40,096 nucleotides of DNA from Hellea sp. Lineage in GTDB: Bacteria > Pseudomonadota > Alphaproteobacteria > Caulobacterales > Maricaulaceae. Made by a program: the position numbers and the translations under genes. Position 1 is the first letter of the stretch; each line of letters begins with the position of its first letter. The DNA lies in NCBI GenBank assembly GCA_020629135.1, contig JAHDDX010000018.1:1-40096 (forward strand), given 5' to 3'. Positions 1,775 to 30,543 of this stretch are shown here, piece by piece. A model generated the notes under the pieces. The model was not told the origin of the DNA. It worked only from the letters and a program-made list of their open reading frames with translations, and did not search any database.

Positions 1775-3832
1775 CTATAATTGCCGAACCAGCCGCAGTG
1801 CGTCATAAATCGCGGCGTGGATATTTCGCGCCGAGACGGCATCTCCAATTCGAAATAGTTGAAACTGGCCGTCTGGGTTAAGGCCTAGTGACTGCGGAGC
1901 GCCTTCGATATAGGCCTCGTAATTTACAGCGCCCAGATTTGTTGAACTTGGTTTTAATGCAATATAGAGATCATCCAATGGCACTAACCCCTGATTAACG
2001 ACCACCTGATCAAATGTCTTTTCATTGCGAAGGTCGCTATAATCCGTGCCGATTTGTGCCTTTATTTGATTGCCATCCATCGTTAAAGCCATCAGGCGGC
2101 GTCCGACCGTAAAAGATATATCGCGCTTTTGCAGTTCCCGCATATAAGGCACCAGGTTCATACCCTGCACGTCGCGCGAAAGACTTCGGTCCGGGCTCAT
2201 CATTTCAACCCGTGCCCCGGACTCGGTCACAATTTCGGCAGCTTGAAGCCCTGCATGATCGCCCGTCTCATCATAAATTAGAACCTTGCTCCCAGGCTTG
2301 GTGTCGCCGGAAATCATATCCCAGGCGGTTACGGCCAAGTCCGAACCCTGTTCCAGATAAGATATTTCCGGCATACCGCCCGTTGCGACGATCACAACAT
2401 CGGGATTCAGGCCCAACACATCTTCCGCCTCCATCCAGTGATTAAAGTGAAAACGAACTCCCAGTTTTTCACATTGCTGTAATCGCCAATCGATGATGCC
2501 GATCATATCGCGGCGGCGCTTGGACTGCGTCAACAACCGGATTTGCCCCCCGGCTTCCGGCGCAGCCTCATAAACATTCACTTTATGACCGCGTTCGGCG
2601 GCGACACGGGCGGCTTCGAGTCCGGCCGGGCCTGCCCCGACAACCACTATTTTCTTTTGAGTTCGTGCAGGCTCGATATCAATTGGTTGCTCGATCTCTC
2701 TACCGGTCGACGGATTGTGAATACAAAGGGCCGCGCCGCCCTCATAAATTCGGTCCAGACAATAGGTGGCGCCGACACAGGGCCTGATATCATCTTCCAG
2801 GCCCATAAGTATTTTTTTGACGATATGTGGATCCGCAATATGCGCGCGAGTCATCCCGACCATGTCCAGATGTCCGCTCGCAACGGCATGACGCGCCGTC
2901 GCAATATCGGCAATTTTTGAAGCGTGAAAAACCGGCAACCCGATTTCCGAACGAACCATTCCGGCAAAATCCAGATGAGGCGAAGACCGCATGCCCTGGA
3001 CGGGAATTACGTCGGTCAAAGCTGCATCCGTATGAACCCGTCCACGAATGACATTGATAAAATCGACTTGGCCGCTTTCTTCCAGCCACCTAGCAATTTG
3101 CAAGCCTTCACTTGCATTTAGCCCCCCTGCCTGCGCTTCATCAACAACCATTCTAACACCCAGAATAAAGGCCGCACCCACACGGTCGCGGATCGCCTTG
3201 AGAATTCGAAAAAAGAAGCGCGTGCGATTCTCAAGAGACCCACCATATTCGCCATCCAGCTCATTGGTTAAAGGCGACCAGAATTGATCCATCAAATGCC
3301 CATAGGCCTCGATTTCGATCCCGTCCACACCGCCTTTTTGCATGCGCTCAGACGCGTCTGCAAAGTCGCGGATGATCCGGTCCATATCCCAATCTTCGAT
3401 CAGTTTCTGACCATACATATGCGCCGGTTCGCGTTTTCGCGTCGGTGCGACTGAGGGCAGCCAATCCCCTTTATCCCACCCGGTTCGTCGGCCCAAATGG
3501 GTGAGCTGGATCATCACCGCGCAGTCATGGGCGTGAATTTCATCGCTCATCGCTTTGATCCAAGGCACGATTTCGTCCTTATAGGCCAGCAGATTATTAA
3601 AGGCAGGCGGACTGTCTCTTGAAACCGAAGCCGAACCCGCCGTCATGGTCATGGCGATGCCCGCCTTAGCGCGTTCCACGTGATAGGCCCGATATCTCTC
3701 TTTGGGCAGACCATCTTCCGCATAGGCCGGTTCATGACTGGTAATCATAATCCGGTTTTTCAGAGTCAGATGTTTTAACTGGAAGGGTTGGAATAGCGGG
3801 TCATTCGGCCGCGAAATATCTAGTTCGGCCAC
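1775..3832 (-). CDS. dgcA: DgcA-like dimethylglycine/N-methyl-amine demethylase (OYE-type flavoprotein)
   Basis: The 685-residue protein starts at GTG, one base after the mttB stop. Residues 1-370 form an FMN-binding TIM barrel of the trimethylamine dehydrogenase/old-yellow-enzyme class (ITHLGRR-like MIQLTHLGRR, then QFWSPLTNELDGEYGGSLENR). Residues 390-685 form an NAD/FAD-binding module (VVVGAGPAGLEAARVAAERGH). The C-terminus, FRIGDAVSARNIHAAIYDALR, is very close to what I recall of Pseudomonas DgcA, which is of the same length. DgcA, with DgcB and ETF, oxidatively demethylates dimethylglycine; StcD does this for stachydrine. The iron-sulphur motif here reads C-x5-C-x11-C, lacking one cysteine of the trimethylamine dehydrogenase motif. 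DgcB and ETF genes are not in the window. Co-transcription behind mttB suggests it acts on the demethylated product. Substrate assignment is inference. Confidence 0.75.
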   Translation of the reverse strand: MAELDISRPNDPLFQPFQLKHLTLKNRIMITSHEPAYAEDGLPKERYRAYHVERAKAGIAMTMTAGSASVSRDSPPAFNNLLAYKDEIVPWIKAMSDEIHAHDCAVMIQLTHLGRRTGWDKGDWLPSVAPTRKREPAHMYGQKLIEDWDMDRIIRDFADASERMQKGGVDGIEIEAYGHLMDQFWSPLTNELDGEYGGSLENRTRFFFRILKAIRDRVGAAFILGVRMVVDEAQAGGLNASEGLQIARWLEESGQVDFINVIRGRVHTDAALTDVIPVQGMRSSPHLDFAGMVRSEIGLPVFHASKIADIATARHAVASGHLDMVGMTRAHIADPHIVKKILMGLEDDIRPCVGATYCLDRIYEGGAALCIHNPSTGREIEQPIDIEPARTQKKIVVVGAGPAGLEAARVAAERGHKVNVYEAAPEAGGQIRLLTQSKRRRDMIGIIDWRLQQCEKLGVRFHFNHWMEAEDVLGLNPDVVIVATGGMPEISYLEQGSDLAVTAWDMISGDTKPGSKVLIYDETGDHAGLQAAEIVTESGARVEMMSPDRSLSRDVQGMNLVPYMRELQKRDISFTVGRRLMALTMDGNQIKAQIGTDYSDLRNEKTFDQVVVNQGLVPLDDLYIALKPSSTNLGAVNYEAYIEGAPQSLGLNPDGQFQLFRIGDAVSARNIHAAIYDALRLVRQL

Positions 3833-3833
3833 G

Positions 3834-5363
3834 TCAATACCACCGCTCTTCTATGTCCATTTTGCGGCGGGCCATGAAATCCAGCAATGCCCCGTCCTTA
3901 TCCGCGTCGAGCTCCGGTTTTTGATCTTCATAGTCTTTCAAAAGCTGGTTCCAACGTTCATAGGCCCTGCGGCGTGTATCCTTGGAACCGTCTTCTTCCC
4001 ATTGTTCAAAACTTTCGCTATCGGACATGACGGCGTCATAATAAGCAGTCTCGTAGTTTTTCATCGTATGGTTTGAGCCGAGGAAATGGCCGCCGGGTTC
4101 GACATCATCATAGGCCGTTTTCCCGACACCATTATCGTCCATGGGCAGGCCATCAATCATGACTTGATAGGCTCCCAGACGATCCGCATCGATGATCAGC
4201 TTTTCGTACCCCGCGCACAAGCCGCCTTCGAGCCAGCCTGCTGCATGCACGACAATATTGGCCCCGCCGAGTACCGTTGACATCATTGAGTCCGCACTTT
4301 CTGCGGCCGCTTGGGCATCCGCGATTTTTGAAGCCGTCAATGATCCGCCGCATCTGAGCGGCACGCCAAGACGCCTCGCGAGTTGCCCAATGACGAAATT
4401 GGACATAATCGGCTCCGGCATGCCGAAAGTCGGCGCCCCGGATTTCAAACTCATAGAGGATAAAAAGTTCCCCAAAACAAAGGGCGCACCAGGTTTGACC
4501 AATTGCGTAAATGCCCCGCACATCATGGCTTCGGCAAAGGCCTGCGCAATTGAGGCCGCCGTCGTCACAGGACCCATTGCCCCGCCCAAAATAAACGGGG
4601 CAACGACCATCCCCTGCCCGGCCCCGCAATAAACCCGGATAGCTTCGGTCACGACACGGTCAACCAATAGCGGCGAATTCGTGTTTACATTGCCCATGAT
4701 TACGCAGTGGTCCTGCATATAGTCTTCGCCGTAGAGGATTTTGGCCATATCAACACTATCCTGCGCCCTGGACATTTCGGTGATCGACCCGAAGAAGGGT
4801 TTATCCGAATATTTCATATGCGAATATACAATATCGAGATGGCGATGACTGACCGGAACATCACAAGGCTCACAGGGTACGTGACCGCCGTGATGCAGGC
4901 TCGGGAGCATATAGGTCAATTTGACGAATTTTCGGAGGTCCTCAATCGTGCCGTACCGCCGCCCGCCTTCCAGGTCCCTAACGAAAGGCGGCCCGTAAAC
5001 AGTCGTGCAAACCAGATTGTCCCCACCGATTAGGACGGAGCGCGCAGGATTGCGCGAATGTTGAACAAACTCTGACGGCGCGGTTTTACATAGCTCGCGG
5101 ATCATTCCTTTTGGCGCGCGCACCCGGGTTCCTTTGACATCCGCCCCAGCTTCTTTCCAAATTTCGAGCGCGACTGGATCTTCCCGAAACTCCAAACCGA
5201 CTTCCTGAATAATCCAGTCAGCTTGATCTTCCAGGCGGACCAGGTTTTCTTCGCTTAGAAATTCATAATAAGGAATTTTGCGTTTCACATAGGCAGGCGC
5301 GATTTGATAGCCAGCCGACATAGCTGTTCGGTTTCGGGTTGTTCGTTTGGCACGCCTAACCAT
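3834..5363 (-). CDS. MttB-family corrinoid-dependent amine methyltransferase 1 (non-pyrrolysine)
   Basis: This 509-residue MttB-superfamily protein starts at ATG 5363 behind GGGGAG. Recognisable family stretches include YGPPFVRDLEGGRRYGTIEDL, SDKPFFGSITEMSRA, LSSMSLKSGAPTFGMPE and HAAGWLEGGLCAGYEKLI (20-residue pieces of the TIM barrel). No in-frame amber codon interrupts it, so it belongs to the non-pyrrolysine class that includes MtgB (glycine betaine), MtpB (proline betaine), MtcB (carnitine) and MtyB (gamma-butyrobetaine). It should move an N-methyl group from a quaternary amine to the Co(I) corrinoid protein encoded at 28082-28774. The N-terminus is basic (MVRRAKRTTRNR). It is followed by the DgcA-like gene with a one-base gap and is divergent from the BCCT transporter. 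Glycine betaine is the likeliest substrate, inferred from context only. Confidence 0.85.
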   Translation of the reverse strand: MVRRAKRTTRNRTAMSAGYQIAPAYVKRKIPYYEFLSEENLVRLEDQADWIIQEVGLEFREDPVALEIWKEAGADVKGTRVRAPKGMIRELCKTAPSEFVQHSRNPARSVLIGGDNLVCTTVYGPPFVRDLEGGRRYGTIEDLRKFVKLTYMLPSLHHGGHVPCEPCDVPVSHRHLDIVYSHMKYSDKPFFGSITEMSRAQDSVDMAKILYGEDYMQDHCVIMGNVNTNSPLLVDRVVTEAIRVYCGAGQGMVVAPFILGGAMGPVTTAASIAQAFAEAMMCGAFTQLVKPGAPFVLGNFLSSMSLKSGAPTFGMPEPIMSNFVIGQLARRLGVPLRCGGSLTASKIADAQAAAESADSMMSTVLGGANIVVHAAGWLEGGLCAGYEKLIIDADRLGAYQVMIDGLPMDDNGVGKTAYDDVEPGGHFLGSNHTMKNYETAYYDAVMSDSESFEQWEEDGSKDTRRRAYERWNQLLKDYEDQKPELDADKDGALLDFMARRKMDIEERWY

Positions 5364-5497
5364 AGGCTCCCCTTTTATCGTTATTTTAAATCAAATTGAA
5401 AACCCGGCAATTGTCACGCATCATAATGAGCATAACTAATAGTAACTTAGTATAAATCGGGGTTTTCCAGCGCTTAGTGAGCTATTAAACACAAATC
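5364..5497. promoter_or_regulatory. Divergent promoter region, mttB-1 / BCCT
   Basis: This 134-base AT-rich spacer separates two divergent genes of the same pathway and must contain both their promoters. A GbdR- or GlxA-like regulator such as the one at 32319 would be expected to bind here, but I could not recognise a definite operator or clear -35/-10 pair. Confidence 0.35.
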
Positions 5498-7045
5498 ATG
5501 AATACATCTAAAAACAACTCAAAAATCGTTCATGCCGCCGGCATGGAAATGCAAAAACCGATTTTCTTTCTGAGCCTGATATTGGTTGTTTTGTTTTCTG
5601 GAACAACACTGCTTTTTCCAGATCAGGCCAATACCTCTTTGCACGCCGCTAAAAACTGGAGCTTGCAAAATTTTGATTGGCTGTATGCTGCCACGCCCAT
5701 CCTCATCTTCTTCATCTGTGCAGGATTGGCAATATCACCCCTTGGGAAAACCCGATTAGGAGGCCCGGACGCCAAACCTGAATATAGCGTGACCTCTTGG
5801 ATCGCTATGTTGTTTGCCGCCGGAGTTGGGATCGGCTTCATGTTTTATGGCACGGCAGAACCCCTGGGGTACTTCACCAATTGGTTTGGCACGCCTTTTA
5901 ATTTGGAAGCCGGAAGTGAGGAAGTTCGTCGATTAGCCTTTTCAGTTTCAATTTTTCACTGGGGTCTACTTGCCTGGGCCGTATATGCAATTGTTGGCGT
6001 GTCACTCGCCTTTTTCTCATTTAATCGAAACCTCCCGCTTTCCATACGGTCTATTTTTTATCCTATATTGGGTGACAAAATATGGGGATGGATGGGCGAT
6101 CTGATCGATTTAATCGCAGTCGTCGCCACGATATTTGGCCTCGCCTGCACAATCGGTATCGGCGCCACCCAGGCCACGGGGGGCTTATCCTATCTATTTG
6201 ACCTGACACCTTCGCTTGGTTTGCAGATTACCCTTATTTTCGTGATCACGATTGCGGCGATTATTTCTGTATTGCGGGGCGTTTCCGGCGGTATCAAAAT
6301 CCTTTCCAACATTAATATGATAGCCGCAACGCTTCTATTATTATTTGTTCTGATTTTCGGCCCGACGGGAGATATTATCAAAACGATCATTGGTTCCACG
6401 GCAACGCTTATTCCGGACTCGATAAAATTGGCGAACTGGATTGGTCGGCCAGATCAGCAATTTTTATATGATTGGACGCTGTTTTACTGGGCCTGGTGGA
6501 TTGCCTGGTCCCCATTTGTCGGCATGTTCATCGCCCGCATTTCTAAAGGCCGGACTATCCGACAGTTTATGGTTTGCGCCCTAATCGTCCCATTGATTAT
6601 TGGAGTTATCTGGTTTTCCGCCTTTGGTGAAACGGCAATATCCCAACATGAAAATGCGGTTGGAGACCTTGCAGATGGCATGGGCGATGCGGCGTTGACC
6701 CTGTTCCAGATGTTGGGTGCCATGCCGGCTTCATTATTGACCTCCCTGATTGCGATGATGCTTTTGATAATCTTTATCGTGACGTCGGCAGATTCAGGAG
6801 CGCTTGTTGTAGATCAGCTCACCTCAGGCGGGCGCGCCGGCACGCCAAAACGCCAACGCGTCTTATGGGCTTCCATGTTGGGTTTGACTGCGATCGCCCT
6901 GTTATATGGGGGCGGCAAAGAGGCCTTACAGTCCTTACAGGCCGGAACAATTACCGCCGCCCTTCCCTTTTCAATCATCGTATTGCTGTGCGGCATCAAC
7001 CTGACGATTGCTCTGTGGCGGGATTATAAGAAGGCAAAAACCTAA
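5498..7045 (+). CDS. BCCT-family betaine/carnitine/choline/DMSP transporter
   Basis: The 515-residue inner-membrane protein has about twelve hydrophobic helices. It carries the BCCT glycine-rich motif GVGIGFMFYG near residue 110, in the BetP-like form associated with Na+-coupled uptake rather than the CaiT antiporter form. It also has the tryptophan-rich signature WTLFYWAWWIAWSPFVGMF, whose aromatic box binds trimethylammonium groups, followed by IARISKGRTIR. The C-terminal tail is short (ALWRDYKKAKT), so the long osmosensory C-terminal helix of BetP is absent, which fits a catabolic rather than osmotic role. No strong ribosome binding site precedes ATG 5498. The family imports glycine betaine, carnitine, choline, ectoine or DMSP; the exact substrate cannot be read from sequence. 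It probably feeds the divergent MttB/DgcA genes and the downstream oxygenases. Confidence 0.9.
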   Translation: MNTSKNNSKIVHAAGMEMQKPIFFLSLILVVLFSGTTLLFPDQANTSLHAAKNWSLQNFDWLYAATPILIFFICAGLAISPLGKTRLGGPDAKPEYSVTSWIAMLFAAGVGIGFMFYGTAEPLGYFTNWFGTPFNLEAGSEEVRRLAFSVSIFHWGLLAWAVYAIVGVSLAFFSFNRNLPLSIRSIFYPILGDKIWGWMGDLIDLIAVVATIFGLACTIGIGATQATGGLSYLFDLTPSLGLQITLIFVITIAAIISVLRGVSGGIKILSNINMIAATLLLLFVLIFGPTGDIIKTIIGSTATLIPDSIKLANWIGRPDQQFLYDWTLFYWAWWIAWSPFVGMFIARISKGRTIRQFMVCALIVPLIIGVIWFSAFGETAISQHENAVGDLADGMGDAALTLFQMLGAMPASLLTSLIAMMLLIIFIVTSADSGALVVDQLTSGGRAGTPKRQRVLWASMLGLTAIALLYGGGKEALQSLQAGTITAALPFSIIVLLCGINLTIALWRDYKKAKT

Positions 7046-7089
7046 ACTTCATTTTTCCTGCTGGGCCTTTTCAAAAATACTTATGTGCA

Positions 7090-7109
7090 AAAATTGAGTG
7101 CGCAATTTT
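7090..7109. repeat. Inverted repeat upstream of the oxygenase pair
   Basis: AAAATTG at 7090-7096 and CAATTTT at 7103-7109 form a perfect 7-bp inverted repeat with a 6-base spacer. It lies in the 111-base gap between the BCCT gene and the oxygenase gene. It could be a regulator site or a weak attenuating hairpin after BCCT. Confidence 0.4.
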
Positions 7110-7123
7110 GAAATTCTGTGCGA

Positions 7124-7141
7124 TAAGCGCGCAAACGCTTA
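7124..7141. repeat. Second inverted repeat, next to the oxygenase ribosome binding site
   Basis: TAAGCG at 7124-7129 and CGCTTA at 7136-7141 form a perfect 6-bp inverted repeat with a 6-base spacer, ending just before the AGGAGA ribosome binding site of the gene at 7157. It has the same 6-base spacer as the preceding repeat. An operator or a structure controlling translation is possible. Confidence 0.4.
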
Positions 7142-7156
7142 GCGCAGGAGAGTCGT

Positions 7157-8305
7157 ATGGGCGTAATTTGGAATGACGTCAGAATTGACGAACCGTCAGG
7201 CGGATTGATATTGGGGAATGCCCCCAAAACGCCCATCACTTTACATCCTCTTTGGCTACGAGAACGCGTAATCGAACACGACGCATTTGATCCCATCAGC
7301 CATCAAAGATTATATGAACCGGCGGAACTGGATCCTGAACTGAAAATCCGATCCGCCACAATTGACGGAAGCCTGGGCAAATTAGCGGTCGCCTTTTCAG
7401 ACGGCTATCAGGCCCAGTTTGACCTGGAAGAACTCGCTAGAGAAATCGGGCTTGCAGACAATCCAGAAAACATTCCAATGCCCAAGGCCTGGCGATCAGA
7501 CCTGAGCTTCAAACGCTTTAATTGGAACGACCTCGACGATCCAGCCGAAATGAAAGCCCTGCTAACGGCCTATTTTGAAAATGCATTTTGTATTATGGAC
7601 GAAACGCCTACGGATCGCGACAGTTTGAAGTCTCATGCTCGTCGGTTTGGATTTTTGCGAGATACCAATTTCGGCGAAATTTTTAATGTCGAAACCAAAC
7701 CTTCGGCAACAGATCTGGCTTATACGGATGTCGCTCTCGCCTCTCATACGGACAATCCCTATCGCTGGCCGGTGCCCAGCATTCAATATCTACATTGCCT
7801 GGCCAATGAAGTCAGCGGCGGCCTGTCTACTCTGGTGGACGGCATGGCGGTGGCCGAAGCATTAGCTGAGGAAAACCAAGATTGGGCGGACATATTAGAA
7901 ACAGTTCCCGTGAGATTTCGCTATGACGGCCCGACCGGCATATATGAAGACACGGCCCCATTAATCGCCCGCGATTACCGGGGGTATGTCAATCATATTC
8001 GTTTCAGTCCGCGCCTGGATTTTGTCCCGGCCTTAGATCCCAAAACGCTGACCGTATTTTACGCTGCCCGCCGCCGTATGCACGAACTGGCCAATGACCT
8101 GGCCTTTCAAATCCAGTTTCCGTTTAAGCCCGGCACATTACTGATGATGAATAATTACCGCCTGTTCCATGGTCGCACAGCCTTTAACGGCAAACAGGGT
8201 TACCGACATCTTCAAGGCTGCTATATTGATCATGACGGGCCGCAATGTCTTTATCGGCTATTGGCGACGGGTCATACCGCGACGTCCATTCAGCGCGAAA
8301 GCTAA
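7157..8305 (+). CDS. Fe(II)/2-oxoglutarate oxygenase, gamma-butyrobetaine hydroxylase/TmpA-like
   Basis: The 382-residue protein starts behind a strong AGGAGA site. An N-terminal DUF971-like domain (residues 1-95) is followed by a TauD-type double-stranded beta-helix domain. The iron ligands are visible as His197-x-Asp199 (ASHTDNPYR) and His338 (RLFHGRTAF), with the 2-oxoglutarate-binding arginine in GYRHLQG. The family includes gamma-butyrobetaine hydroxylase, trimethyllysine hydroxylase and TmpA, which hydroxylates 2-(trimethylammonio)ethylphosphonate. The zinc-binding cysteine cluster of the N-terminal domain of animal gamma-butyrobetaine hydroxylase is replaced here (LWLRERVIEHDAFDP). It is 9 bases upstream of an HD-domain oxygenase-like gene, the same pairing as TmpA/TmpB. 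Trimethylammonium hydroxylation is well supported; which substrate is used is not. Confidence 0.8.
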   Translation: MGVIWNDVRIDEPSGGLILGNAPKTPITLHPLWLRERVIEHDAFDPISHQRLYEPAELDPELKIRSATIDGSLGKLAVAFSDGYQAQFDLEELAREIGLADNPENIPMPKAWRSDLSFKRFNWNDLDDPAEMKALLTAYFENAFCIMDETPTDRDSLKSHARRFGFLRDTNFGEIFNVETKPSATDLAYTDVALASHTDNPYRWPVPSIQYLHCLANEVSGGLSTLVDGMAVAEALAEENQDWADILETVPVRFRYDGPTGIYEDTAPLIARDYRGYVNHIRFSPRLDFVPALDPKTLTVFYAARRRMHELANDLAFQIQFPFKPGTLLMMNNYRLFHGRTAFNGKQGYRHLQGCYIDHDGPQCLYRLLATGHTATSIQRES

Positions 8306-21146: not shown

Positions 21147-22679
21147 TTAGCTGATATTACTATCCGGGAAGCTGGACTTTTTATCGTCCATATATTTGAG
21201 CAGGCGCGCATCGATATCAGGATCGAGCTCGGGCAAAGTATATTCCTTCAGCATGGTTTTATACTTTGCCGCGGCGCGATCTTCAGCGGACAGAGACCCG
21301 TCTTCGACCCATTGCTCATAGCTGTTATTGTCCGCGACTTCGGAAATATAGAAGGCTTCTTTGAAGTTCTTTTGGGTGTGTTCACACCCCAGGAAATGCT
21401 GTCCCGGTCCGACATCGGCAAGTGCGTCAAGCGCCTGCCCGTTATCGCTCATATCGACACCTTGGGCGTAGACCGCCATCATACCGGCCTGGTCGGCATC
21501 CATGATAAATTTCTCATATCCCATAGACAAACCGCCTTCCTGCCATCCCGCCGTATGCAGCATAAAGTTCACACCCGCGAGCAAACCATTTTGCAGCGTA
21601 TTGGCCGCTTCATAGGCCGCTTGTGCGTCCGGCAGTTTGGACGCGTTAAATCCTCCGGCTGAGCGGAACGGCACACCCAGACGCCGGGCCAAAGCTGCGC
21701 CCATATTGATCACAAGCGAAGCTTCTGGCGTTCCAAAGGTCGGTGCGCCGGATTGCATGGACATAGACGACACAAAGTTTCCGTAAATCACAGGCGAACC
21801 CGGACGGATTAATTGCGCCAGCGCCATGCCGACCATCCCCTCGGCCAGACTTTGAGCCGCCACAGCGGCGGCCGTCACGGGTGACATGGCCCCGGCAACG
21901 ATGAACGGGCTGGGCATAACCGCCTGATTGTGACGTGAGTAATTCTTCAATGCGCCGAGCATGACACTGTCATAGGTCATAGGTGAGTTGGCATTGATCA
22001 GATTGACCATGACACAGTTCTCTTCGACAAAATCTTCGCCGAAAACAATCTTGGACATTTCAACCGAGTCCAAAGCCCGGCGCGGTGCGGTCACAGAGCC
22101 CATAAAAGCTTTGTCCGAATATTTGATATGGGAATAGACCATATCATAGTGCCTTTTGTTCACAGGCAGATCGACTGGCTCACAAATCGTACCACCGCTG
22201 TGATGCAGATGCGGTGACATATAGGCCAGCTTCACGAAATTTCGGAAATCTTCGATGGTCGCGTAACGGCGGCCTTCGTCTTTGGAATAAACGAACGGTG
22301 AACCATAGGCAGGCACCAGCACCGTGTTCTTACCGCCAATTTCGACATTATTTGCCGGGTTCCGGGCGTGTTGGGTAAACTGTGCCGGGGCCGTTTTTTG
22401 AATAAGCTCGCGCAGCATACCGCGCGGGAATTTAACCCGTTCACCTTCGGCACTCGCACCGGCAGCCACGAAGATATCAATGCTTTCCTGATCTTCTTTG
22501 ATATCGATCCCGATATCTTGCAGGATTGTATCCGCATTATGCTCAAGCTGTGCGAGATCCGTATCATTCAGGACCGAATATTCCGGGATCTTGCGGGTGA
22601 TATAAGGTTTGCGCGGCGCCTCTGTGGCGGCGCGGGCTGCGGCGCGACCGGCGCGCCCTCCTCTTGCTCGTCTGGCCAT
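21147..22679 (-). CDS. MttB-family corrinoid-dependent amine methyltransferase 2 (non-pyrrolysine)
   Basis: The true start is ATG 22679 behind AAAGG; the open frame extends further upstream but through the neighbouring gene. The 510-residue product is a paralogue of the protein at 3834-5363 and matches it along its length (YGSPFVYSKDEGRRYATIEDF, SDKAFMGSVTAPRRA, SSMSMQSGAPTFGTPEASL and HTAGWQEGGLSMGYEKFI as separate pieces). There is no in-frame amber codon, so it is a non-pyrrolysine MttB. The N-terminus is Arg/Gly/Ala-rich (MARRARGGRAGRAAARAA), a tail that precedes the barrel. It sits 13 bases after the activase gene inside the corrinoid operon, so it is probably the dedicated methyl-donor enzyme for the corrinoid protein encoded upstream. 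Its substrate probably differs from that of paralogue 1. Confidence 0.87.
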   Translation of the reverse strand: MARRARGGRAGRAAARAATEAPRKPYITRKIPEYSVLNDTDLAQLEHNADTILQDIGIDIKEDQESIDIFVAAGASAEGERVKFPRGMLRELIQKTAPAQFTQHARNPANNVEIGGKNTVLVPAYGSPFVYSKDEGRRYATIEDFRNFVKLAYMSPHLHHSGGTICEPVDLPVNKRHYDMVYSHIKYSDKAFMGSVTAPRRALDSVEMSKIVFGEDFVEENCVMVNLINANSPMTYDSVMLGALKNYSRHNQAVMPSPFIVAGAMSPVTAAAVAAQSLAEGMVGMALAQLIRPGSPVIYGNFVSSMSMQSGAPTFGTPEASLVINMGAALARRLGVPFRSAGGFNASKLPDAQAAYEAANTLQNGLLAGVNFMLHTAGWQEGGLSMGYEKFIMDADQAGMMAVYAQGVDMSDNGQALDALADVGPGQHFLGCEHTQKNFKEAFYISEVADNNSYEQWVEDGSLSAEDRAAAKYKTMLKEYTLPELDPDIDARLLKYMDDKKSSFPDSNIS

Positions 22680-22692
22680 AATAATACCTTTC

Positions 22693-24636
22693 TTAGCTGC
22701 GTCTTCTGCGACGACGACGTGGCGAGCTTTCCGGATCAGCCTCGGGTGCTGTCGGAAATGCCATGGCGTCGACAAAATATTGTTGAAATTTAGGTTCCAA
22801 TGCGGTCTCGACCTTTTCGATCTCGCGCACGGCTTTGATGATTTTCGGACGTTGGTCCTGATCCAGGAGCGCCATAGCGGCGCCCATACCCGCCGCATTT
22901 CCGACTGAGCGAATAATATCGGCAGCGGCGCGCGGAACAATCCCAATCTCTGATACATATTTCGGATCGAGATGGGTCCCAAATGCACCGGCGAGTAAAA
23001 CCTCGTCAAACTGTTCACAGCCCAAGGCTTCCGACAATAGTTCAGCCCCGGCGAATAAAGCGGCCTTGGCAAGTTGAACCGCGCGAATATCCGTCTGCTT
23101 GATAAATAACGGATTGTCCGGCCGATCAAGCAATAGATATTTTTGGCTTTTACCCTCATTGTCGGGCAACATCCGACCAGAGGTATCGCCTGAGCGATAC
23201 AGACCGCCTTTGTCGATTAATCCCGCATTGGCGAGTTCAACCATCACCTCAAAAATTCCTGATCCGCAAATTCCTGTGATTTTAAATTCCGAAAGATCAT
23301 CCTGGTCCGATAGCCAGTCGTCATGGCCGATAATCTTGATCTTGGATTGCTTGGTTACTGGATCAATGCGCACGCGTTCAATTGCACCGAGGCTTGCCCG
23401 GACCCCGCAACTGATCTCCGCCCCCTCAAGCGCTGGCCCTGTCGGCGATGACGCAGCAGCGACCTTGTCTTCATGGGACAAAACAATTTCGGCATTGGTA
23501 CCAATATCAACCAATAAGACTGATCGTCCGTCCATTTGGTCCATCTGGGTCAGGTATGCCGCCGTGGTATCGGCCCCGACATGTCCCCCGATCAAGGGGA
23601 AGAATGATATCTGGGCTGTTTCAGAAAGCCCGAGATCGAGTCGACCAGCCGGAATATCGATCCAATCTTTGATCGCAAGGGTAAACGGGGCCTGTCCGAG
23701 TTCGACCGGGTTTGCGCCAAGTAGTAAATGATGCATAATCGGATTGCCGACACAAATCACATCAAGCAATTGGTTCGGTCCCAAATCCAATTCAGTTACG
23801 GCTTCGCCGAGCATGGATTTGAGCTGCGCCCGGACGGCATCGGTCAATTTCACCTCGCCGCCTTTATTCATCATGATATATGAGACCCGGCTCATCAAAT
23901 CTTCGCCAAAACGGATTTGCGGGTTCATCGCCGCTTTTTCAAAGACCAGTTGTCCTGTAGCCAGATTGAACACATACATCGCTATCGAAGTCGAGCCTAC
24001 ATCAATGGCGGCACCGTATAAATCAAAGGGCGATGGCGGCCAAACGTCAATAATCGTATCATTATTGCGCACAACCGTGATGACTGTCCGATCATGAGCC
24101 CGCAAAATGTCCTGCAGCTTTATCAACATACGGTGGGTGGTCCGGACATCCAAACCGTGATGAGCTTTAAGTTCCTCGACGAGCGCCTCGCCGTCACTTG
24201 GATTATCCTCCAATGTCGGCACAGGCAATTGCACCATATGCAGCGTAATCGCCGGATTTACCGGCACATTAATTGGCGTGCTCTTCTTTTGGATTGAACT
24301 TTCAGATTGACGTGAATCGCTCGGAACCTCGACCACCAGATCACCCCGAATTTTCGCCCGACAGGCCAGACGTCGCGACGACGACAACTCTTCGTCGTGG
24401 ATGGCTTTCTTCTCGGTTGGTGTCAGCTTGCCAACATTTTCAGCTTTGACGTCTAGATTGAATTTGGCGTGTTTGCCCGTATCGATCTCAACCTGGCAGC
24501 GCTTGCACAGACCTTTGCCGCCACAAATCGACTGAATATCAACGCCGACTTCAAGCGCCACGTCATAGACAGTTTGTCCGTCTTGTGCTTCGGTCCGCAA
24601 TCCGGACGGCGTGAATATGACCGTGTGAGCGCTCAA
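22693..24636 (-). CDS. Reductive activator of corrinoid methyltransferases (RACE, DUF4445/ASKHA)
   Basis: This 647-residue protein has an N-terminal [2Fe-2S] ferredoxin domain with Cys38, Cys44, Cys47 (CGGKGLCKRC) and Cys92 (RRLAC). A linker follows to about residue 205, then a DUF4445/ASKHA ATPase-like domain (AAIDVGSTSIAMYVFNL; LLVDIGTNAEIVL; TGICGSGIFEV; LLAGAFGTHLDP). Proteins of this type use ATP-driven or reductant-driven one-electron transfer to return inactive Co(II) corrinoid to Co(I). The C-terminus ends with seven consecutive arginines (SPRRRRRRRS). Its ATG overlaps the GFA stop by four bases and mttB-2 follows after 13 bases, fixing its role in the same methyl-transfer system. Confidence 0.88.
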   Translation of the reverse strand: MSAHTVIFTPSGLRTEAQDGQTVYDVALEVGVDIQSICGGKGLCKRCQVEIDTGKHAKFNLDVKAENVGKLTPTEKKAIHDEELSSSRRLACRAKIRGDLVVEVPSDSRQSESSIQKKSTPINVPVNPAITLHMVQLPVPTLEDNPSDGEALVEELKAHHGLDVRTTHRMLIKLQDILRAHDRTVITVVRNNDTIIDVWPPSPFDLYGAAIDVGSTSIAMYVFNLATGQLVFEKAAMNPQIRFGEDLMSRVSYIMMNKGGEVKLTDAVRAQLKSMLGEAVTELDLGPNQLLDVICVGNPIMHHLLLGANPVELGQAPFTLAIKDWIDIPAGRLDLGLSETAQISFFPLIGGHVGADTTAAYLTQMDQMDGRSVLLVDIGTNAEIVLSHEDKVAAASSPTGPALEGAEISCGVRASLGAIERVRIDPVTKQSKIKIIGHDDWLSDQDDLSEFKITGICGSGIFEVMVELANAGLIDKGGLYRSGDTSGRMLPDNEGKSQKYLLLDRPDNPLFIKQTDIRAVQLAKAALFAGAELLSEALGCEQFDEVLLAGAFGTHLDPKYVSEIGIVPRAAADIIRSVGNAAGMGAAMALLDQDQRPKIIKAVREIEKVETALEPKFQQYFVDAMAFPTAPEADPESSPRRRRRRRS

Positions 24637-25052
24637 ACGTCCTTACCCTCCTGGCGCGTCCCGCCGGGCGGAAATCCTTCAAATTGTGGTAAGCCATCTG
24701 CAATTTCGAAATAGTCGGCTTTTTCTTCGACAAAGATATGTCCCATGACATCAAGTCCGTCTGTATCGTCCAGGCAGCCGACAAGAACACTGACCGTGTC
24801 ACGAGCCGCCTCATCCCAGAACATATAGCTACCACAGGATTTGCAATGCCCTGAATTTGATTTTTCAGAAATCGGCAGCCAATTCACGGGCCCTGAAATT
24901 TGAAGATTTTCACGTAATACACCTGCCGCCGCTATGTAACGCCCAGTCAATTTCTGGCATTGTTTGCAATGACAGTACCAGATATCAGACAGGCCCATCG
25001 CCTCGAATGACACGGCGCCGCAAAGGCAGGATCCTGTATAGGTTTTGACCAT
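24633..25052 (-). CDS. GFA/CENP-V family zinc protein
   Basis: This 139-residue protein has the Gfa zinc ligands Cys9-x-Cys11 (GSCLCGAVSF), Cys27-x-Cys29-x2-Cys32 (YCHCKQCQ) and Cys70-x2-Cys73 (GHCKSCGSY). Some relatives were described as glutathione-dependent formaldehyde-activating enzymes, but the family is broad and often mis-named. Its start overlaps the preceding stop (TAATG) and its end overlaps the RACE start (ATGA), so it is tightly coupled to corrinoid genes. A role in handling formaldehyde from N-demethylation is possible but unproven. Confidence 0.85.
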   Translation of the reverse strand: MVKTYTGSCLCGAVSFEAMGLSDIWYCHCKQCQKLTGRYIAAAGVLRENLQISGPVNWLPISEKSNSGHCKSCGSYMFWDEAARDTVSVLVGCLDDTDGLDVMGHIFVEEKADYFEIADGLPQFEGFPPGGTRQEGKDV

Positions 25053-25960
25053 TAGCTGGCGCGTCGCCGACGGCGACCACCACGACCGCGACGCCCACCT
25101 TCCTCACCTTCGGCAGGCGGCTGTCGATAATAGCGGATCCAATTGGCGCAGTTCTCATCATTATTGTTGAGAACATCAGCCGCACGAACAGCTGGAACGA
25201 GCCCTTCATGCAATGGATTGACAATTGCGGACGTCATTCCCGCGCAGGCCAGCATGGGCAGGAAGGCATTGTTAATGGCATGCCGGTTCGGCAGACCGAA
25301 GGCGATATTAGAGGCGCCGCAAGTTGTGTTTACACCAAGCTCATTGCGAAGGCGGGCGATCAGTTTGAAGCAATCCGTTCCCGCGCTGCCAACTGCACCA
25401 ATCGGCATAACCAATGGATCAACAACCACATCTTCAGCTTTAATACCGTGGTCGTGGGCGCGCTCAACAATACGTTTGGCCACTTCAAAACGGACATCCG
25501 GATCTTCTGAAATCCCGGTATCATCGTTGGAAATCGCAACGACGGCGCAGTCATATTTGGCAACCAAAGGCAGAACTCGCTCCATGACCTCTTCTTCGGC
25601 GGTCGTAGAATTCACCAGCGGGCGGCCTTTATAAACAGAAAGGCCGGATTCCAGCGCTTCGATGATAGAACTATCGATACATAGCGGCGCATCGGTCAGG
25701 CTTTGAATCAATGGCACGACTTCGGCCATAATCGCAGGCTCATCAGCAAGCGGGACACCGACATTCACGTCAAGAATTTGCGCACCGGCTTCGACTTGCG
25801 CGACCGCCTCTTTTTTGACGCGCCAGTAATTTCCTTCTTTGAGCTCTTTGGAGAACAGCTTTCGTCCGGTGGGATTAATCCGTTCGCCAATCATAGCGAA
25901 TGGCTGGTCAAATCCGATAACCACTTCCTTGGTTGCTGAGGATAAAATAGTACGGGCCAT
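25052..25960 (-). CDS. Methylcorrinoid:tetrahydrofolate methyltransferase (MeTr/MtgA-like)
   Basis: ATG 25960 behind AGGA gives 302 residues; the longer frame to 26065 would overlap MetF. It is a pterin-binding TIM barrel related to AcsE and MtgA: MIGERINPTGR at the start, GAQILDVNVGVPLADE, CIDSSIIEALE, LVNSTTAEEE and CGASNIAFGLPNRHAINNAF. It should transfer the methyl group from the methylated corrinoid protein to tetrahydrofolate. The last 20 residues are an Arg/Gly tail (GGRRGRGGRRRRRAS) not needed for the barrel. It lies between the MetF-like gene (8-base gap) and the GFA gene (one-base overlap). Confidence 0.87.
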   Translation of the reverse strand: MARTILSSATKEVVIGFDQPFAMIGERINPTGRKLFSKELKEGNYWRVKKEAVAQVEAGAQILDVNVGVPLADEPAIMAEVVPLIQSLTDAPLCIDSSIIEALESGLSVYKGRPLVNSTTAEEEVMERVLPLVAKYDCAVVAISNDDTGISEDPDVRFEVAKRIVERAHDHGIKAEDVVVDPLVMPIGAVGSAGTDCFKLIARLRNELGVNTTCGASNIAFGLPNRHAINNAFLPMLACAGMTSAIVNPLHEGLVPAVRAADVLNNNDENCANWIRYYRQPPAEGEEGGRRGRGGRRRRRAS

Positions 25961-25968
25961 AGTTTTTC

Positions 25969-27000
25969 CTAACTGACTGTTCCGATCGTTGTATCTGTTT
26001 TTTCCGGCGCCCAGGGTTTGCGATCCCCGAGGACCCCGGAGCGCTTGACCACATCGCCGACCCACTGTTCCTGGCGGTAAGCCATAACATGAGCGCCGGC
26101 GACGCCGTCGATTTCTTTGAGCTGCTGCATGATTTCTGCGCAGATTTTGCGGCCTTCAAGCTTAGGTTTTTCTGCCTGTTCGAGACGCCGGATAATATCG
26201 TCCGGAATATGAACCCCCGGAACATTGCTGCGCATCCATTTTGCCGTCTTGGCCGAGGGTAAAACCCCTACTCCGATAATGATAAAAGCTTCTTCCGTTA
26301 GGCCAAGATCCCGGGCCCGGCTCATAAAATCTTTGAGCACGGGCATATCGAAACAATATTGGGACTGAATGTACTCTGCCCCGGAGGCGATTTTCTTCGC
26401 CAGTTGATCCGCCCGATTTTCTATCGGTGGCACAAAAGGATTGATCGATGAGCCAATAAACAAGCGAGGTTCAAGATCGAGTTTACGTCCGCTTAGAAAA
26501 GTTTTCTTGTCGCGCATGGTCCGGATGGTCTGCGCCAGTGAAATACTATCCAGATCAAAAACCGGCTTAGCCTCAGGGTGATCTCCGGCCCCGACATCAT
26601 CCCCCGTCAGGCAAAGGACATTACAAACACCAAGCGCTGCCGCCCCTAACGTGTCACCTTGAATGGAAATCCGGTTACGATCTCGGCACGAAATTTGAAG
26701 AATTGGAGAATAACCAAGCCGGGTCAGGATCGCACAAACAGCCAGGCTCGACATATGACAATGCGCCCCTGAACCGTCAGTCGCGTTAATGGCGTCCACA
26801 TAGCCATCAAACATCGCGGCCCGAACAAGCACCTCGTCAGGATCGGCTGAATCCGGCGGGGCAATTTCTGTGGTAACGGCAAAATGTCCTGCCTTGAGGA
26901 CCCGTTCAAACCGGCCATGAGAAACATGGCCTTCTAACCGGGGTAGAGGGTCACCAGGATTGGTCCCGACTTTGCCGACATCAATATCTGTGGATGACAT
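25969..27000 (-). CDS. Methylenetetrahydrofolate reductase, MetF-like
   Basis: The 343-residue protein is a MetF-type FAD TIM barrel (TTEIAPPDSADPDE; NATDGSGAHCHMSS; LCLTGDDVGAG; QSQYCFDMPVLKDFM). In this operon it would run oxidatively, turning methyl-THF made by the MeTr protein into methylene-THF. It is immediately preceded, with a one-base gap, by a MetV-like iron-sulphur protein, the partner in MetFV-type reductases of acetogens and related bacteria. The electron acceptor is probably passed through that subunit and is unknown. Confidence 0.87.
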   Translation of the reverse strand: MSSTDIDVGKVGTNPGDPLPRLEGHVSHGRFERVLKAGHFAVTTEIAPPDSADPDEVLVRAAMFDGYVDAINATDGSGAHCHMSSLAVCAILTRLGYSPILQISCRDRNRISIQGDTLGAAALGVCNVLCLTGDDVGAGDHPEAKPVFDLDSISLAQTIRTMRDKKTFLSGRKLDLEPRLFIGSSINPFVPPIENRADQLAKKIASGAEYIQSQYCFDMPVLKDFMSRARDLGLTEEAFIIIGVGVLPSAKTAKWMRSNVPGVHIPDDIIRRLEQAEKPKLEGRKICAEIMQQLKEIDGVAGAHVMAYRQEQWVGDVVKRSGVLGDRKPWAPEKTDTTIGTVS

Positions 27001-27001
27001 G

Positions 27002-27457
27002 TCAATTGTCCTGTTTCATGTCTTCACGGGCAAGCTTGAGCCAGGTTGACCTGCCCTTATCCCTATGATCAACCGCAAATTCTACCGACTTGATTGCGTC
27101 TCCGTCTTTCATCCGGGACGCTCCGTCCCAGGCCGCAACCCAAACGCATCTCATCTCAGGCTTAACTTCACACATGCCATTGGCGCGCACCCCTCCGCAT
27201 GGACCATTGCGGATTGTCTTAGGGCAGTTCATTGGACAACTCATGCCCGTTTTGGAAAGCGCGCAGTTCCCACACATCTGGCAGTCAAACAACAATCCCT
27301 TTAGCCCGGCCTCGGCGGCCGTGATTGGCGCATCGAGCTTCTTGCCAAAGACGCGAGTTATCCCGCGCAATGTGGCCAGTATGGCCGGGTTGACGAAGTT
27401 ATAAAGCGCTTCGAAAAACCGGGAATGCCGAACCGCAAAAAGGCGCACACTATACAC
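27002..27457 (-). CDS. MetV-like iron-sulphur subunit (MTHFR C-terminal domain)
   Basis: A GTG start at 27457 lies behind GGAGG and overlaps the DUF1638 gene by eight bases, giving 151 residues. Cysteines at 59, 62, 65, 74, 78, 87, 96 and 104 (CQMCGNCALS, SCPMNCPK, GPCGG) match the MTHFR_C/MetV cysteine-rich domain and could hold two [4Fe-4S] clusters. The N-terminal 50 residues are basic and partly hydrophobic. It is expected to form a complex with the MetF-like protein encoded next and to link it to an electron carrier. Confidence 0.8.
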   Translation of the reverse strand: MYSVRLFAVRHSRFFEALYNFVNPAILATLRGITRVFGKKLDAPITAAEAGLKGLLFDCQMCGNCALSKTGMSCPMNCPKTIRNGPCGGVRANGMCEVKPEMRCVWVAAWDGASRMKDGDAIKSVEFAVDHRDKGRSTWLKLAREDMKQDN

Positions 27458-28079
27458 TGCTGGCCTCCAGAACTTTTTGATCGTCTTTGATCAGGGACAC
27501 AGCATTTGCCAACGCCCCGTAACCGACAAATTTATATTCAAATGAAAGCCCCAATTTAAGTGCGGCGGCTTTGGCTTTCGTGATCAGATCCTGATCTTTT
27601 TCCTGGGCAATATAAACGAGCTTTTTGTAATGTTCGAAATAGCTGTCGCGAAGCTCCGGAAAACGATCAAGACCCATGCCTTTGATAATCAGCGTGTCGA
27701 AATGCCGAACCAGATAATCGGTCAAGAAAAACGTGCCGAGTTCCTCTTCCATCATGTCATCAAAGGTTCTGAGACCCGTATAAAAGGCATAGCAATGCGC
27801 GCCCGGTAAGCGCATGGCGTTTGGATAATGCGCCAAAAGCCGGTCCAGGCTCCCGCCCGTTCCGCAATCGCCATAACCGATTAAAATGCGATCATAACGA
27901 TGGGCATTTTCTTCAAGCAGCTTTTTCAATCCCGGAACTATTTTTTCCGGCCGGTTGTGGTATCCAGCCGGCAGACATTGCAATTCTGCATTTTTGTCGA
28001 ACTGACGACACAATAGAATGGTTTCTTTGGCCAATGCCCCACAAGCAATAATCAGCGTATTTGGGCTTTGGGCCGTCAT
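27450..28079 (-). CDS. DUF1638 protein of unknown function
   Basis: This 209-residue cytosolic protein has two glycine/cysteine-containing segments, IIACGALAKETILL at the start and IGYGDCGTGGSLDRLL near residue 95, plus HCYAFYTG. It matches my recollection of DUF1638, a family often found beside MttB and corrinoid genes in Alphaproteobacteria and methanogens. No catalytic mechanism is established. It sits two bases after the corrinoid-protein gene and overlaps the MetV-like gene, so it is coupled to the methyl-transfer pathway. A role in corrinoid handling or in a methyl-transfer side step is a guess. Confidence 0.8.
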   Translation of the reverse strand: MTAQSPNTLIIACGALAKETILLCRQFDKNAELQCLPAGYHNRPEKIVPGLKKLLEENAHRYDRILIGYGDCGTGGSLDRLLAHYPNAMRLPGAHCYAFYTGLRTFDDMMEEELGTFFLTDYLVRHFDTLIIKGMGLDRFPELRDSYFEHYKKLVYIAQEKDQDLITKAKAAALKLGLSFEYKFVGYGALANAVSLIKDDQKVLEASSV

Positions 28080-28081
28080 GT

Positions 28082-28774
28082 TTAGCGGTTCTTCCCAACA
28101 ATCACTTTAGCCAGTTCCGCACTCATCGCGGCGTCACGACCATAAGTATGGGCGTTAATGGCGTCGGCGAATTCCTGATTGAGCGGTGCGCCACCGACCA
28201 TAACCGGCAGTTCTTTTAAAATGCCACGCTTATCAAGCTCTTCGATTACCACGCCCATATAAGGCATGGTCGTTGTCAAAAGCGCTGACATACCGAGAAT
28301 ATCGGGCTCGTGCTTTTCAATTGCTTCGAGATATTCTTCGACCGGCGTGTTTATCCCCAGATCAATAACCTCAAACCCGGCCCCTTCGAGCATCATGCCG
28401 ACCAGGTTTTTACCGATATCGTGAATATCACCCTTTACGGTGCCGATGACATACTTACCGGTGCTTGATTTTGAATCGCTCTGCGCCAGGATTGGACGCA
28501 AAAGCCCCATCCCGCCTTTCATCGCGTTAGCGCTTTGCAGCACTTCCGGGACGAATAGAATACCATCGCGAAAATCTACACCGACAATCCGCATACCCTC
28601 GACCAAAGCGTCATTAAGCACCATATTGGCGTCCCATCCGCGGTCTAGCAGGATCTGAGTTCCTTCGGTGACTTCCTCAATCAGACCATCATAGAGGTCA
28701 TCCTGCATTTGCTGAACAAGTTCATTATCGTCCAGATCTTTGAGGATGATTTCCTCGTCGTCGTGATCACTCAT
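28082..28774 (-). CDS. Corrinoid (B12-binding) methyl-carrier protein, MtgC/MtbC-like
   Basis: The 230-residue protein has a helical B12-binding cap (residues 15-95, ending ILFVPEVLQSANAMKGGM) and a Rossmann-like B12 domain with the signature GDIHDIGKNLVG, where His118 is the expected lower cobalt ligand, then GMSALLTTT and VGGAPLN. It accepts methyl groups from the MttB proteins and donates them to the MeTr protein. The N-terminus is very acidic: 12 Asp/Glu and one Lys in the first 30 residues. It is encoded 24 bases after fhs and two bases before the DUF1638 gene. Only one corrinoid protein is in the window, so both MttB paralogues probably share it. Confidence 0.92.
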   Translation of the reverse strand: MSDHDDEEIILKDLDDNELVQQMQDDLYDGLIEEVTEGTQILLDRGWDANMVLNDALVEGMRIVGVDFRDGILFVPEVLQSANAMKGGMGLLRPILAQSDSKSSTGKYVIGTVKGDIHDIGKNLVGMMLEGAGFEVIDLGINTPVEEYLEAIEKHEPDILGMSALLTTTMPYMGVVIEELDKRGILKELPVMVGGAPLNQEFADAINAHTYGRDAAMSAELAKVIVGKNR

Positions 28775-28798
28775 AATAGGCTCCTGATCCTAAAAGGC

Positions 28799-30499
28799 TT
28801 ATGCCAATCCAACAATTTGTCCGTCTTCATCCAGACCAATATCCAAGGCTGCCGGATGACGTGGCAGACCCGGCATACGCATAATTGTACCGCAAATCGC
28901 GACCACAAATCCAGCGCCCGCATTCAAAGTCGCCTCGCGCACTTCAACCGTATGGCCGGAGGTCGCGCCGAGCTTTTTAGGGTCCGTTGAGAAACTGGAC
29001 TGGGTTTTTGCAATGCAGATCGGCAGATGGCCGAAACCCATCTTTTCAATCTTGCGAAGTTCGGCAGAGGCTGGCCCTGCAAACGTCACCGCATCCGCGC
29101 GGTAGATTTCCGTTGCGACGGCTTCGACTTTCTTCTTAAGCGGAATATCATCGGCATACATCAAAGTGACATCCGGCTTTGGACCGTCCAATACGCCTTT
29201 GACAACACGGGCGAGGTCTTCTGCCCCGGCACCGCCTTCAGCCCAATGGCGTGACACAGCCATTTCGACACCTTCGGCGTCACAAATAGCCTGCACTTCA
29301 GCGACTTCCGCGTCCGTGTCATGGATAAAATGATTGAGCGCAACGACGGGCTGTACGCCGAACTTTTTGAGGTTTTGAATATGGCGCTGAAGATTTACGC
29401 CGCCTTCCTTAACCGCGCCGGCATTGGCTTCGTTCAGATCGCCTTTGGCAACGCCGCCCTGCATTTTCATGGCACGGACTGTACACACCAAAACCACAGC
29501 ATCCGGGCGAAGACCCGACTGACGGCATTTGATATCGAGAAACTTTTCAGCACCAAGATCAGCCCCAAATCCGGCCTCAGTAACAACCACATCGGTCATT
29601 TTCAAAGCGGTCTGAGTGGCGACAACTGAGTTGCAGCCATGTGCTATATTGGCGAATGGTCCGCCGTGAATGAAGGCCAGATTGTGCTCAATCGATTGCA
29701 CCAGATTAGGCTGAAAGGCGTCCTTGAGCAGAACCGTAACCGCCCCGTCCGCTTTAATATCACGAACCGTGACCGGCTTTTTATCATAGGTTTGACCCAG
29801 GATAATGTCGCCAATGCGCTTTTGCAGGTCTTTGAGGTCTGTTGCGAGACAGAAGATCGCCATAATTTCCGAAGCGACCGTAATGTCAAAACCGTCTTCG
29901 CGCACGACACCTTGTGTCGGTCCACCTAACCCAATGACAATGTCACGAAGCGCCCGGTCATTCATGTCAACCACACGTCGCCATGTAATCCGGCGCGGAT
30001 CAATGTTGAGCTCATTACCCCACTGCAGGTGATTGTCCAGCATTGCGCTGATCAATGAATGGGCTGACGTAATCGCGTGGAAATCTCCATTAAAATGCAG
30101 ATTAATATCTTCCATCGGCAAAACCTGGGCGCGACCGCCACCCGCGGCGCCACCCTTCATACCAAAGCAAGGCCCAAGAGATGGCTCTCGCAAACACACT
30201 ATAGAATTTACGCCGATACGATTAAAACCATCGTTTAAGCCAACGCTGGTGGTCGTTTTTCCTTCGCCGGCTGGCGTTGGGGTTACGGCAGTCACCAATA
30301 CGAGCTTCCCATTTGGACGATCCGCCAATGAATCAATATATTCCAAGGACAGCTTAGCTTTGTAGTGACCATATGGCACCAAGGCTTCAGGCGGAATACC
30401 CAACCGCTCTTCGGCCAAAGGCAGAAGCGGTTTCATTTTAGCCGCTCTGGCGATTTCGATATCCGGCGCACCCGGTGCTGGTAAATTTTGTTGGCTCAT
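28799..30499 (-). CDS. fhs: Formate-tetrahydrofolate ligase
   Basis: ATG 30499 behind AGGGGA gives 566 residues; an upstream TTG in the same frame has no ribosome binding site. The nucleotide-binding loop is [16 protein letters not shown], and [19 protein letters not shown] and [13 protein letters not shown] are hallmark fhs segments. It interconverts formate, ATP and tetrahydrofolate with formyl-THF. As first gene of the corrinoid operon it could run backwards, making ATP and formate from methyl groups oxidised through MetF/MetV and a FolD that is not in this window, or supply formyl-THF. Confidence 0.95.
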
Positions 30500-30543
30500 A
30501 AGTTTATCCCCTGAAATCTCACTAGTAAAATTGGACAATTTGG

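Follow-up and report, generated by a model that had tools for sequence, protein, structure and literature searches.

Known corrinoid carrier systems and the locus of Hellea sp.

The closest described counterpart of the locus considered here, a gene run in a 40,096-nucleotide stretch of Hellea sp. DNA (contig JAHDDX010000018.1; 'the window' hereafter denotes this whole stretch), is the aerobic MtgBCDE glycine-betaine demethylase / split methionine synthase, described in Ruegeria pomeroyi and other marine Proteobacteria (PMC12478193) and, for Phaeobacter inhibens, in PMC5764234. That system, which is itself already known, has the same MttB/MtgB, MtgC, MtgD, MetF2, RamA-like activator and DUF1638 components, and its stand-alone homocysteine methyltransferase MtgE, the fourth partner of the corrinoid protein MtgC (PMC12478193), is encoded elsewhere in the genome, there and here. 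Mutants of R. pomeroyi in mtgC and mtgD are reported to fail both in methionine synthesis and in growth on glycine betaine (PMC12478193). In MetH, likewise, the homocysteine, folate and reactivation partners all share a single corrinoid domain (PMC5764234 for the domain layout). The anaerobic MttB–MttC and MtaB–MtaC pairs have the same folds and reaction logic (PMC9842639); they differ in docking via folded surfaces, and their homologues in mostly anaerobic loci are without Arg-rich tails. The carrier of MtaB–MtaC has an additional N-terminal domain that lies in a groove on the enzyme, which provides a precedent for docking through the N-terminus of a carrier (PMC9842639).

In the window, a gene run on the minus strand (30538-21147) comprises Fhs, MtgC, a DUF1638 protein, a MetF C-terminal-like protein, MetF, MtgD, a GFA-family protein, RACE and MttB-2. 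Pfam matches place MttB, MtgC, MtgD and a RamA-like activator in this single run (21147-30538), and on this domain evidence the operon is predicted to encode an MtgBCD glycine-betaine demethylase / split methionine synthase. The enzymes of the run that work on MtgC bear Arg-rich tails, which we read from sequence, with a probability of roughly 0.6, as a shared docking tag for this corrinoid carrier. Such a tag would be a layer added to the MtgBCDE system as described, and would hold the partners reversibly and non-covalently, whereas MetH links them covalently. The terms 'arginine', 'disordered' and 'tail' are absent from the main text of PMC12478193, and no description of the tails was found in the open-access literature searched, subscription journals and supplements being outside that search.

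Arginine-rich tails in the window

The tails claimed in the original prediction are present in the sequence. MttB-2 (21147-22679; this and all other features of the run lie on the minus strand) is an MttB/MtgB-family corrinoid methyltransferase (PF06253, 718 bits against a cut-off of 25, nearly the whole length matched) with an Arg-rich N-terminal tail at residues 1-22 (22614..22679; start MARRARGGRAGRAAARAA). This tail is predicted to be disordered; its predicted local distance difference test (pLDDT) score is below 50 in an AlphaFold model made from an alignment with homologues. RACE (22693-24636), a RamA/RACo-like reductive activator of the corrinoid protein with matches to Fer2 and to the RACo linker, middle and C-terminal domains (PF14574, PF17651, PF17650, PF00111), ends in SPRRRRRRRS (22696..22725), and MtgD (25052-25963; PF00809), the methyltetrahydrofolate:corrinoid methyltransferase (MeTr), ends in GGRRGRGGRRRRRAS (25055..25099). 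The carrier MtgC (28082-28774; PF02310 and PF02607) has an acidic N-terminus, with 12 Asp/Glu in its first 30 residues (28685..28774).

A second MttB-family methyltransferase, MttB-1 (3834-5363, minus strand; PF06253, 708 bits against the same cut-off), lies away from the operon and outside the range 21147-28774 given for the earlier observation; it has the basic N-terminal tail MVRRAKRTTRNR (5328..5363, minus strand). These are the two MttB genes found in the genome, a 2.76 Mb assembly in 105 contigs that is approximately 85% complete. MttB-1 is flanked (1775-8305) by an NADH:flavin-oxidoreductase-like gene (1775-3832) and by a betaine-type transporter and a dioxygenase-like gene (5498-8305), all named by eye, and the region may be another locus for methylated amines that supplies the same MtgC.

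Conservation of the tails among homologues

A tail was scored where at least four Arg fell in some 10-residue window, a threshold chosen after the data had been seen, and the counts are unadjusted for kinship between genomes. The class sample held 190 genomes, 40 of them with MttB; of these, 38 had a RACE match, two such matches being fragments, while 38 matched the MtgD query and 39 the MtgC query, in some genomes only through MetH-type proteins. A simple gene caller was used, and some genes are miscalled, chiefly in GC-rich genomes.

Almost every homologue counted in this section carries a tail, and the original prediction, which had staked itself on close homologues sharing them, holds on this point. 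The C-terminal tail reaches the threshold in 62/63 RACE homologues, a set made up of 37 of the 39 places from the class search, leaving aside fragments in G077 and G007, and 26 high-scoring places added from a phylum sample with RACE in 53 of its 398 genomes (of the new places there, 47 in all, 11 were left out); all 26 added proteins reach it. For MtgD the count is 35/35, with fragments from G071 and G077 set aside and with one counted row, the second copy in G185 (L179), that looks frameshifted. Among 68 MttB N-termini, drawn from at least 150 listed places (82 unused) and with start codons mostly guessed as the nearest ATG, 62 have at least four Arg in 10 and all 68 have at least three, although one of the 62 (L355) proves on inspection to have no tail. 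Where all four partner families were sampled in one genome, the best copy of each reaches four Arg in 10 in 24 of 25 genomes. By eye, the tails keep their composition but not a fixed order of residues. The second MtgD copy of G185 (C88:46439-47230) stands beside an intact one with its end out of frame with the family, and is apparently a decaying duplicate.

The same pattern is seen in named species. Tail scores are 4-6 in Sinorhizobium meliloti (MttB, MtgD, RACE and MtgE) and in Paracoccus aminovorans (MttB, MtgD and RACE). Outside Alphaproteobacteria, MtgD (6) and RACE (5) are tailed in Azoarcus sp. KH32C (Betaproteobacteria), whose annotation shows no MttB over the stretch that was read, and G263, the one genome of the 26 added from the phylum sample in which MtgC was searched, has tails on MttB, MtgD and RACE together with an acidic MtgC. 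In both, the tails co-occur with the acidic extension of MtgC.

MtgE, the fourth partner

If the tail serves MtgC then MtgE, as the fourth MtgC partner, should bear one. The MtgE of this genome (G000:C55:2139-3137, on contig 55 and outside the operon; PF02574) is of the Bmt type by best match and ends PRRTRRRRA. A PF02574 search of the 40 MttB genomes listed 94 matches, of which 52 were read and 42 left unused, each typed by its best match among five references. Tails are present in 25/26 proteins of the Sinorhizobium Bmt/MtgE type versus 0/16 stand-alone proteins of other types (seven MetH/split-MetH type and nine MmuM-like; Fisher p 1e-10, kinship ignored), these 16 being the proteins with a scorable C-terminus of their own among the 26 non-MtgE matches read. 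MtgE could also be picked out by its tail: in a plain scan of 796 proteins of its own genome for Arg-rich ends, it is among the four with at least six Arg in 10, and two of the other three start, by eye, with a signal-peptide-like sequence.

Background rate, composition and the polyanion alternative

Such tails are rare on other proteins. In the same background set, called from 917,645 of the 2,756,069 bases of the genome, a 10-residue window of the last 40 residues holds at least four Arg in 30/796 proteins, at least five in seven and at least six in four, which removes the earlier concern that tails might be equally common on unrelated proteins. Seven Arg in the last 15 residues, the count in RACE, is reached by 2/796 proteins, and by none of 351 called proteins of four other genomes (at least seven); 12 acidic residues among the first 30 occur in none of the 796.

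Proteins of the operon that need not meet the carrier (Fhs, MetF, the DUF5981 protein, DUF1638 and GFA) are without C-terminal tails by eye, as had been claimed for all of them but the DUF5981 protein. In related loci, C-terminal tails at the same threshold are found in 0/11 MetF, 0/6 DUF5981 and 0/2 Fhs proteins (the N-termini of MetF and DUF5981 were left unused there as their starts are uncertain), and in 2/22 DUF1638 proteins, both of which look like runs inside a folded end. The possibility that every protein of the operon is tailed is rejected by these scores.

The tails are kept as arginine. In the last 15 residues Arg outnumbers Lys by 378:11 in RACE (n=63), 218:1 in MtgD (n=35) and 157:11 in MtgE (n=26), or 753 versus 23 in sum, while in the protein cores the mean proportion of Arg among Arg and Lys is 0.58-0.67. 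Arg counts in the tails are uncorrelated with the guanine-plus-cytosine (GC) content of the locus between 0.32 and 0.73, and Arg is retained over Lys even in loci of 32-36% GC; this preference, independent of GC, therefore indicates selection for arginine and not for charge alone, and binding, if it occurs, may be more than electrostatic. Arg codon use in the RACE and MtgD tails is broadly the same as in the rest of the gene, so selection acts on the protein. Chance or GC drift is rejected as an origin, given the lack of correlation with GC, the low background in the genome itself and the fact that Lys does not take the place of Arg in AT-rich loci. A cause at the level of DNA, for which the adjoining 3′ end of RACE and 5′ start of MttB-2 might speak, is unlikely, because the tails persist where these genes are apart; it is further disfavoured by the ordinary codon use and by MtgE lying mostly elsewhere in the genome.

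The same composition gives rise to an alternative. Tails rich in Arg and Gly, with Arg favoured over Lys, are typical of nucleic-acid-binding proteins, and those described here resemble in composition the RGG/RG boxes of RNA-binding proteins, although by eye their repeats are short and irregular. The tails might accordingly bind a polyanion other than MtgC (RNA, ribosomes, DNA, polyphosphate or an anionic membrane) and so gather the enzymes of the pathway at one site, MtgC following for other reasons. The partly folded state of the acidic segment of MtgC, and the acidity of carriers other than MtgC (both below), lend this some weight. It does not, however, predict that tails should be restricted to enzymes working with MtgC while their stand-alone relatives of other types have none, nor that they should co-occur with the acidic extension of MtgC, and the other operon proteins scored mostly have no tail. 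We consider it unlikely.

Relatives outside MtgC systems

Homologues from systems without MtgC were scored for comparison. In 80 loci found with the MtgB of D. hafniense, mostly from anaerobes by name, tails are present on 0/7 RACE and 0/8 MeTr proteins and on 1/87 MttB proteins (87 of 99 were taken, at 150 bits or more), the one being probably a wrong start. A diverged RACE is present in ten Proteobacteria, of which only G364 belongs to the class, and 0/10 have a tail. In the five of these genomes that were searched (G364, G196, G226, G281 and G324) no MttB and no close MtgC was found, the best MtgC matches being of at most 42% identity and mostly MetH-sized frames. In two of the diverged RACE loci (L340 and L348) the neighbour of RACE is, by Pfam, a methyltransferase of the URO-D type, and a further corrinoid protein is encoded close by. 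In G364 (C59; L349:6270-10611), an alphaproteobacterial RACE has a small corrinoid protein approximately 2 kb upstream, in a genome in which neither MttB nor a close MtgC was found.

One genome, G079, provides an internal control. The MttB that adjoins a second corrinoid protein there (L357, 5824-8057) is untailed, and the MttB proteins L010 and L390 of the genome are tailed; L357 and a further copy, L356, are outside the 68 MttB rows. In G087, an MttB beside its own corrinoid protein (L355, the row without a tail on inspection) has no clear tail, its start being uncertain. Limitation of the tail to MtgC partners is thus largely what was found: 25/26 MtgE versus 0/16 for other types, and 62/63 alpha-type RACE versus 0/10 for the diverged form.

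These comparisons bear on the proposal that the tails, as a compositional trait passed on by descent, serve each enzyme internally, in solubility, subunit assembly or stability. Most tailed genes come from Alphaproteobacteria, and N-terminal residues of the M. barkeri MttB help to hold its hexamer (PMC9842639), both of which accord with such a role. Four unrelated folds, tailed at different ends, would nonetheless all have had to adopt this one solution, and outside MtgC systems most homologues have no tail; we regard this proposal as the least probable of the alternatives weighed here. The idea that the tails are a general adaptation to oxygen is weakened in turn, since the chloromethane proteins CmuA/CmuB, a haloarchaeal system and the URO-D-type systems from outside the class, with hosts presumed aerobic, are untailed.

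The acidic N-terminus of MtgC

In the AlphaFold model of MtgC confidence is low over approximately the first 10 residues (mean pLDDT 64), and the remaining acidic stretch enters the first helices of the cap domain. Across 35 MtgC proteins (a fragment from G178 was left out), the 22 residues up to a DLYDG-type motif include between 7 and 11 acidic ones in 35/35, with a mean of 0.26 basic residues. The acid excess is 6-11 in all 35 and at least eight in 26, a value reached over the first 22 residues by 1/796 proteins of the Hellea genome; where the start lies near, the 22-residue window may reach into untranslated codons upstream of it, and the windows set against it in other proteins were the first 22 residues or fewer. 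Only 1/79 carriers from the mostly anaerobic loci has an acid excess of at least six ahead of the motif. Of these carriers, 54/79 start 8-12 residues before the homologous motif and 14/79, with uncertain starts, have at least 22 residues before it, compared with 25 in the MtgC of the window.

The claim that the corrinoid protein has an acidic tail consequently stands in part: the 12 Asp/Glu in 30 residues are there, but beyond approximately 10 residues the segment is predicted to be folded, and other carriers can be nearly as acidic.

With partners of opposite charge and several tailed partners to each carrier, the tails and MtgC might instead condense into droplets or a large assembly that channels methyl groups. 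MttB and MtmB of M. barkeri are hexamers (PMC9842639), so a tailed MttB could show several tails at once. The tails are short, however, and the flexible acidic part of MtgC is approximately 10 residues long, which is a low valence for phase separation; we judge condensation less likely than binding to another polyanion.

Proposed mechanism and the points against it

The factor common to the four tailed families is contact with MtgC, and the most economical reading is therefore that the tail docks MtgC. In this mechanism MtgC would have to visit four kinds of enzyme in turn: the MttB-family demethylases (up to seven or more copies in one genome), MtgD, which would pass the methyl group to or from tetrahydrofolate, MtgE, which would pass it to homocysteine, and RACE, which would re-reduce cob(II)alamin. 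Each bears a short Arg/Gly-rich tail, N-terminal on MttB and C-terminal on MtgD, MtgE and RACE, that may touch MtgC, most likely at the acidic extension ahead of the cap domain. Docking of this kind would raise the local concentration and let one partner displace another fast; the catalytic contact would be made by the folded domains, with the tail acting on encounter and exchange. What we infer is that the tails bind MtgC, where on it they do so, and how the partners are exchanged.

Prothymosin-α and histone H1 offer a parallel, in which disordered segments of opposite charge bind tightly and yet exchange fast, through competitive substitution (PMC7661507), although these eukaryotic chromatin proteins are of far higher charge, net -44 and +53 (PMC11592313). 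Since polyelectrolyte complexes join tight binding with fast competitive exchange, they would suit a carrier with several clients. A fuller version, in which MtgC is a dynamic hub and the Arg-Gly-rich tail a client password, convergent on four unrelated folds and kept as arginine so that the carrier hops between demethylases, folate, homocysteine and repair enzyme by competitive tail displacement, is tentative, and we would give it slightly less than even odds.

Several observations weigh against the docking tag. The MttB–MttC complex of M. barkeri docks through folded surfaces and the cofactor (PMC9842639). In G079, the MttB L356, near a corrinoid protein that is not MtgC, has the basic N-terminus PRRSRRER (its start is uncertain), which speaks against a strict rule. 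The tail has been lost where MtgC is kept in at least two cases, the RACE of G084 and the MtgE of G061, which suggests that it is of use but not essential. No tail is seen on a haloarchaeal RACE (L436) or on CmuA/CmuB (L435), and the tailed cases found are all from Proteobacteria, a largely inherited pattern and hence one of few independent origins. On the side of the carrier, the first 30 residues include 10 or 11 acidic ones in 20/79 proteins of the mostly anaerobic loci, and 11 in the carrier of the untailed G079 MttB; acidity alone does not track the tails, only the acidic extension ahead of the cap does. That segment of MtgC is also, according to the model, partly folded. The expectation that tails mark the enzymes contacting a shared corrinoid protein holds in the families examined, with MtgE added to them, and fails in G084 and G061, L356 being an ambiguous case.

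Other genes of the operon and neighbouring proteins

The remaining genes of the run, whose products have no tail by eye, encode a GFA-family protein (24633..25052; PF04828), a MetF-like methylenetetrahydrofolate reductase (25969..27000; PF02219), a MetF C-terminal-domain-like protein (27002..27457; PF12225 / DUF5981), a DUF1638 protein (27450..28079; PF07796) and the formate-tetrahydrofolate ligase Fhs (28799..30538; PF01268). In P. inhibens the DUF1638 protein is described as an accessory of B12 reactivation (PMC5764234).

Two further proteins occur in related clusters. A protein of approximately 100 residues named 'virulence factor' is encoded in the MtgC cluster of S. meliloti (L353:12909-13211; PF13769) and of Azoarcus (L352:10180-10515, by annotation), and in Terrarubrum (L438:11756-14038) the same domain is fused to the N-terminus of RACE; given its cluster position and this fusion, it probably assists B12 reactivation and is misleadingly named. 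It was not seen in the operon of the window. A protein of approximately 235 residues adjoins MttB in S. meliloti (L353:6052-6756, annotated as a ferredoxin, without a Pfam match) and in P. aminovorans (L354:9060-9767), and is a possible electron donor for RACE.

Implications

The MtgBCDE pathway is widely expressed in the ocean (PMC12478193). A docking tag on its enzymes would offer a testable answer to the question of how the separate B12-pathway enzymes of aerobic bacteria share one carrier without fusion. Should this reading be correct, unrelated metabolic enzymes would share a single disordered tag, for which natural examples are uncommon. New MtgC clients would then be predictable from sequence and could be found from their tails alone, as the scan that returned MtgE among 4/796 proteins illustrates, and the tag would be a simple and portable one for building multi-enzyme methyl-transfer systems.

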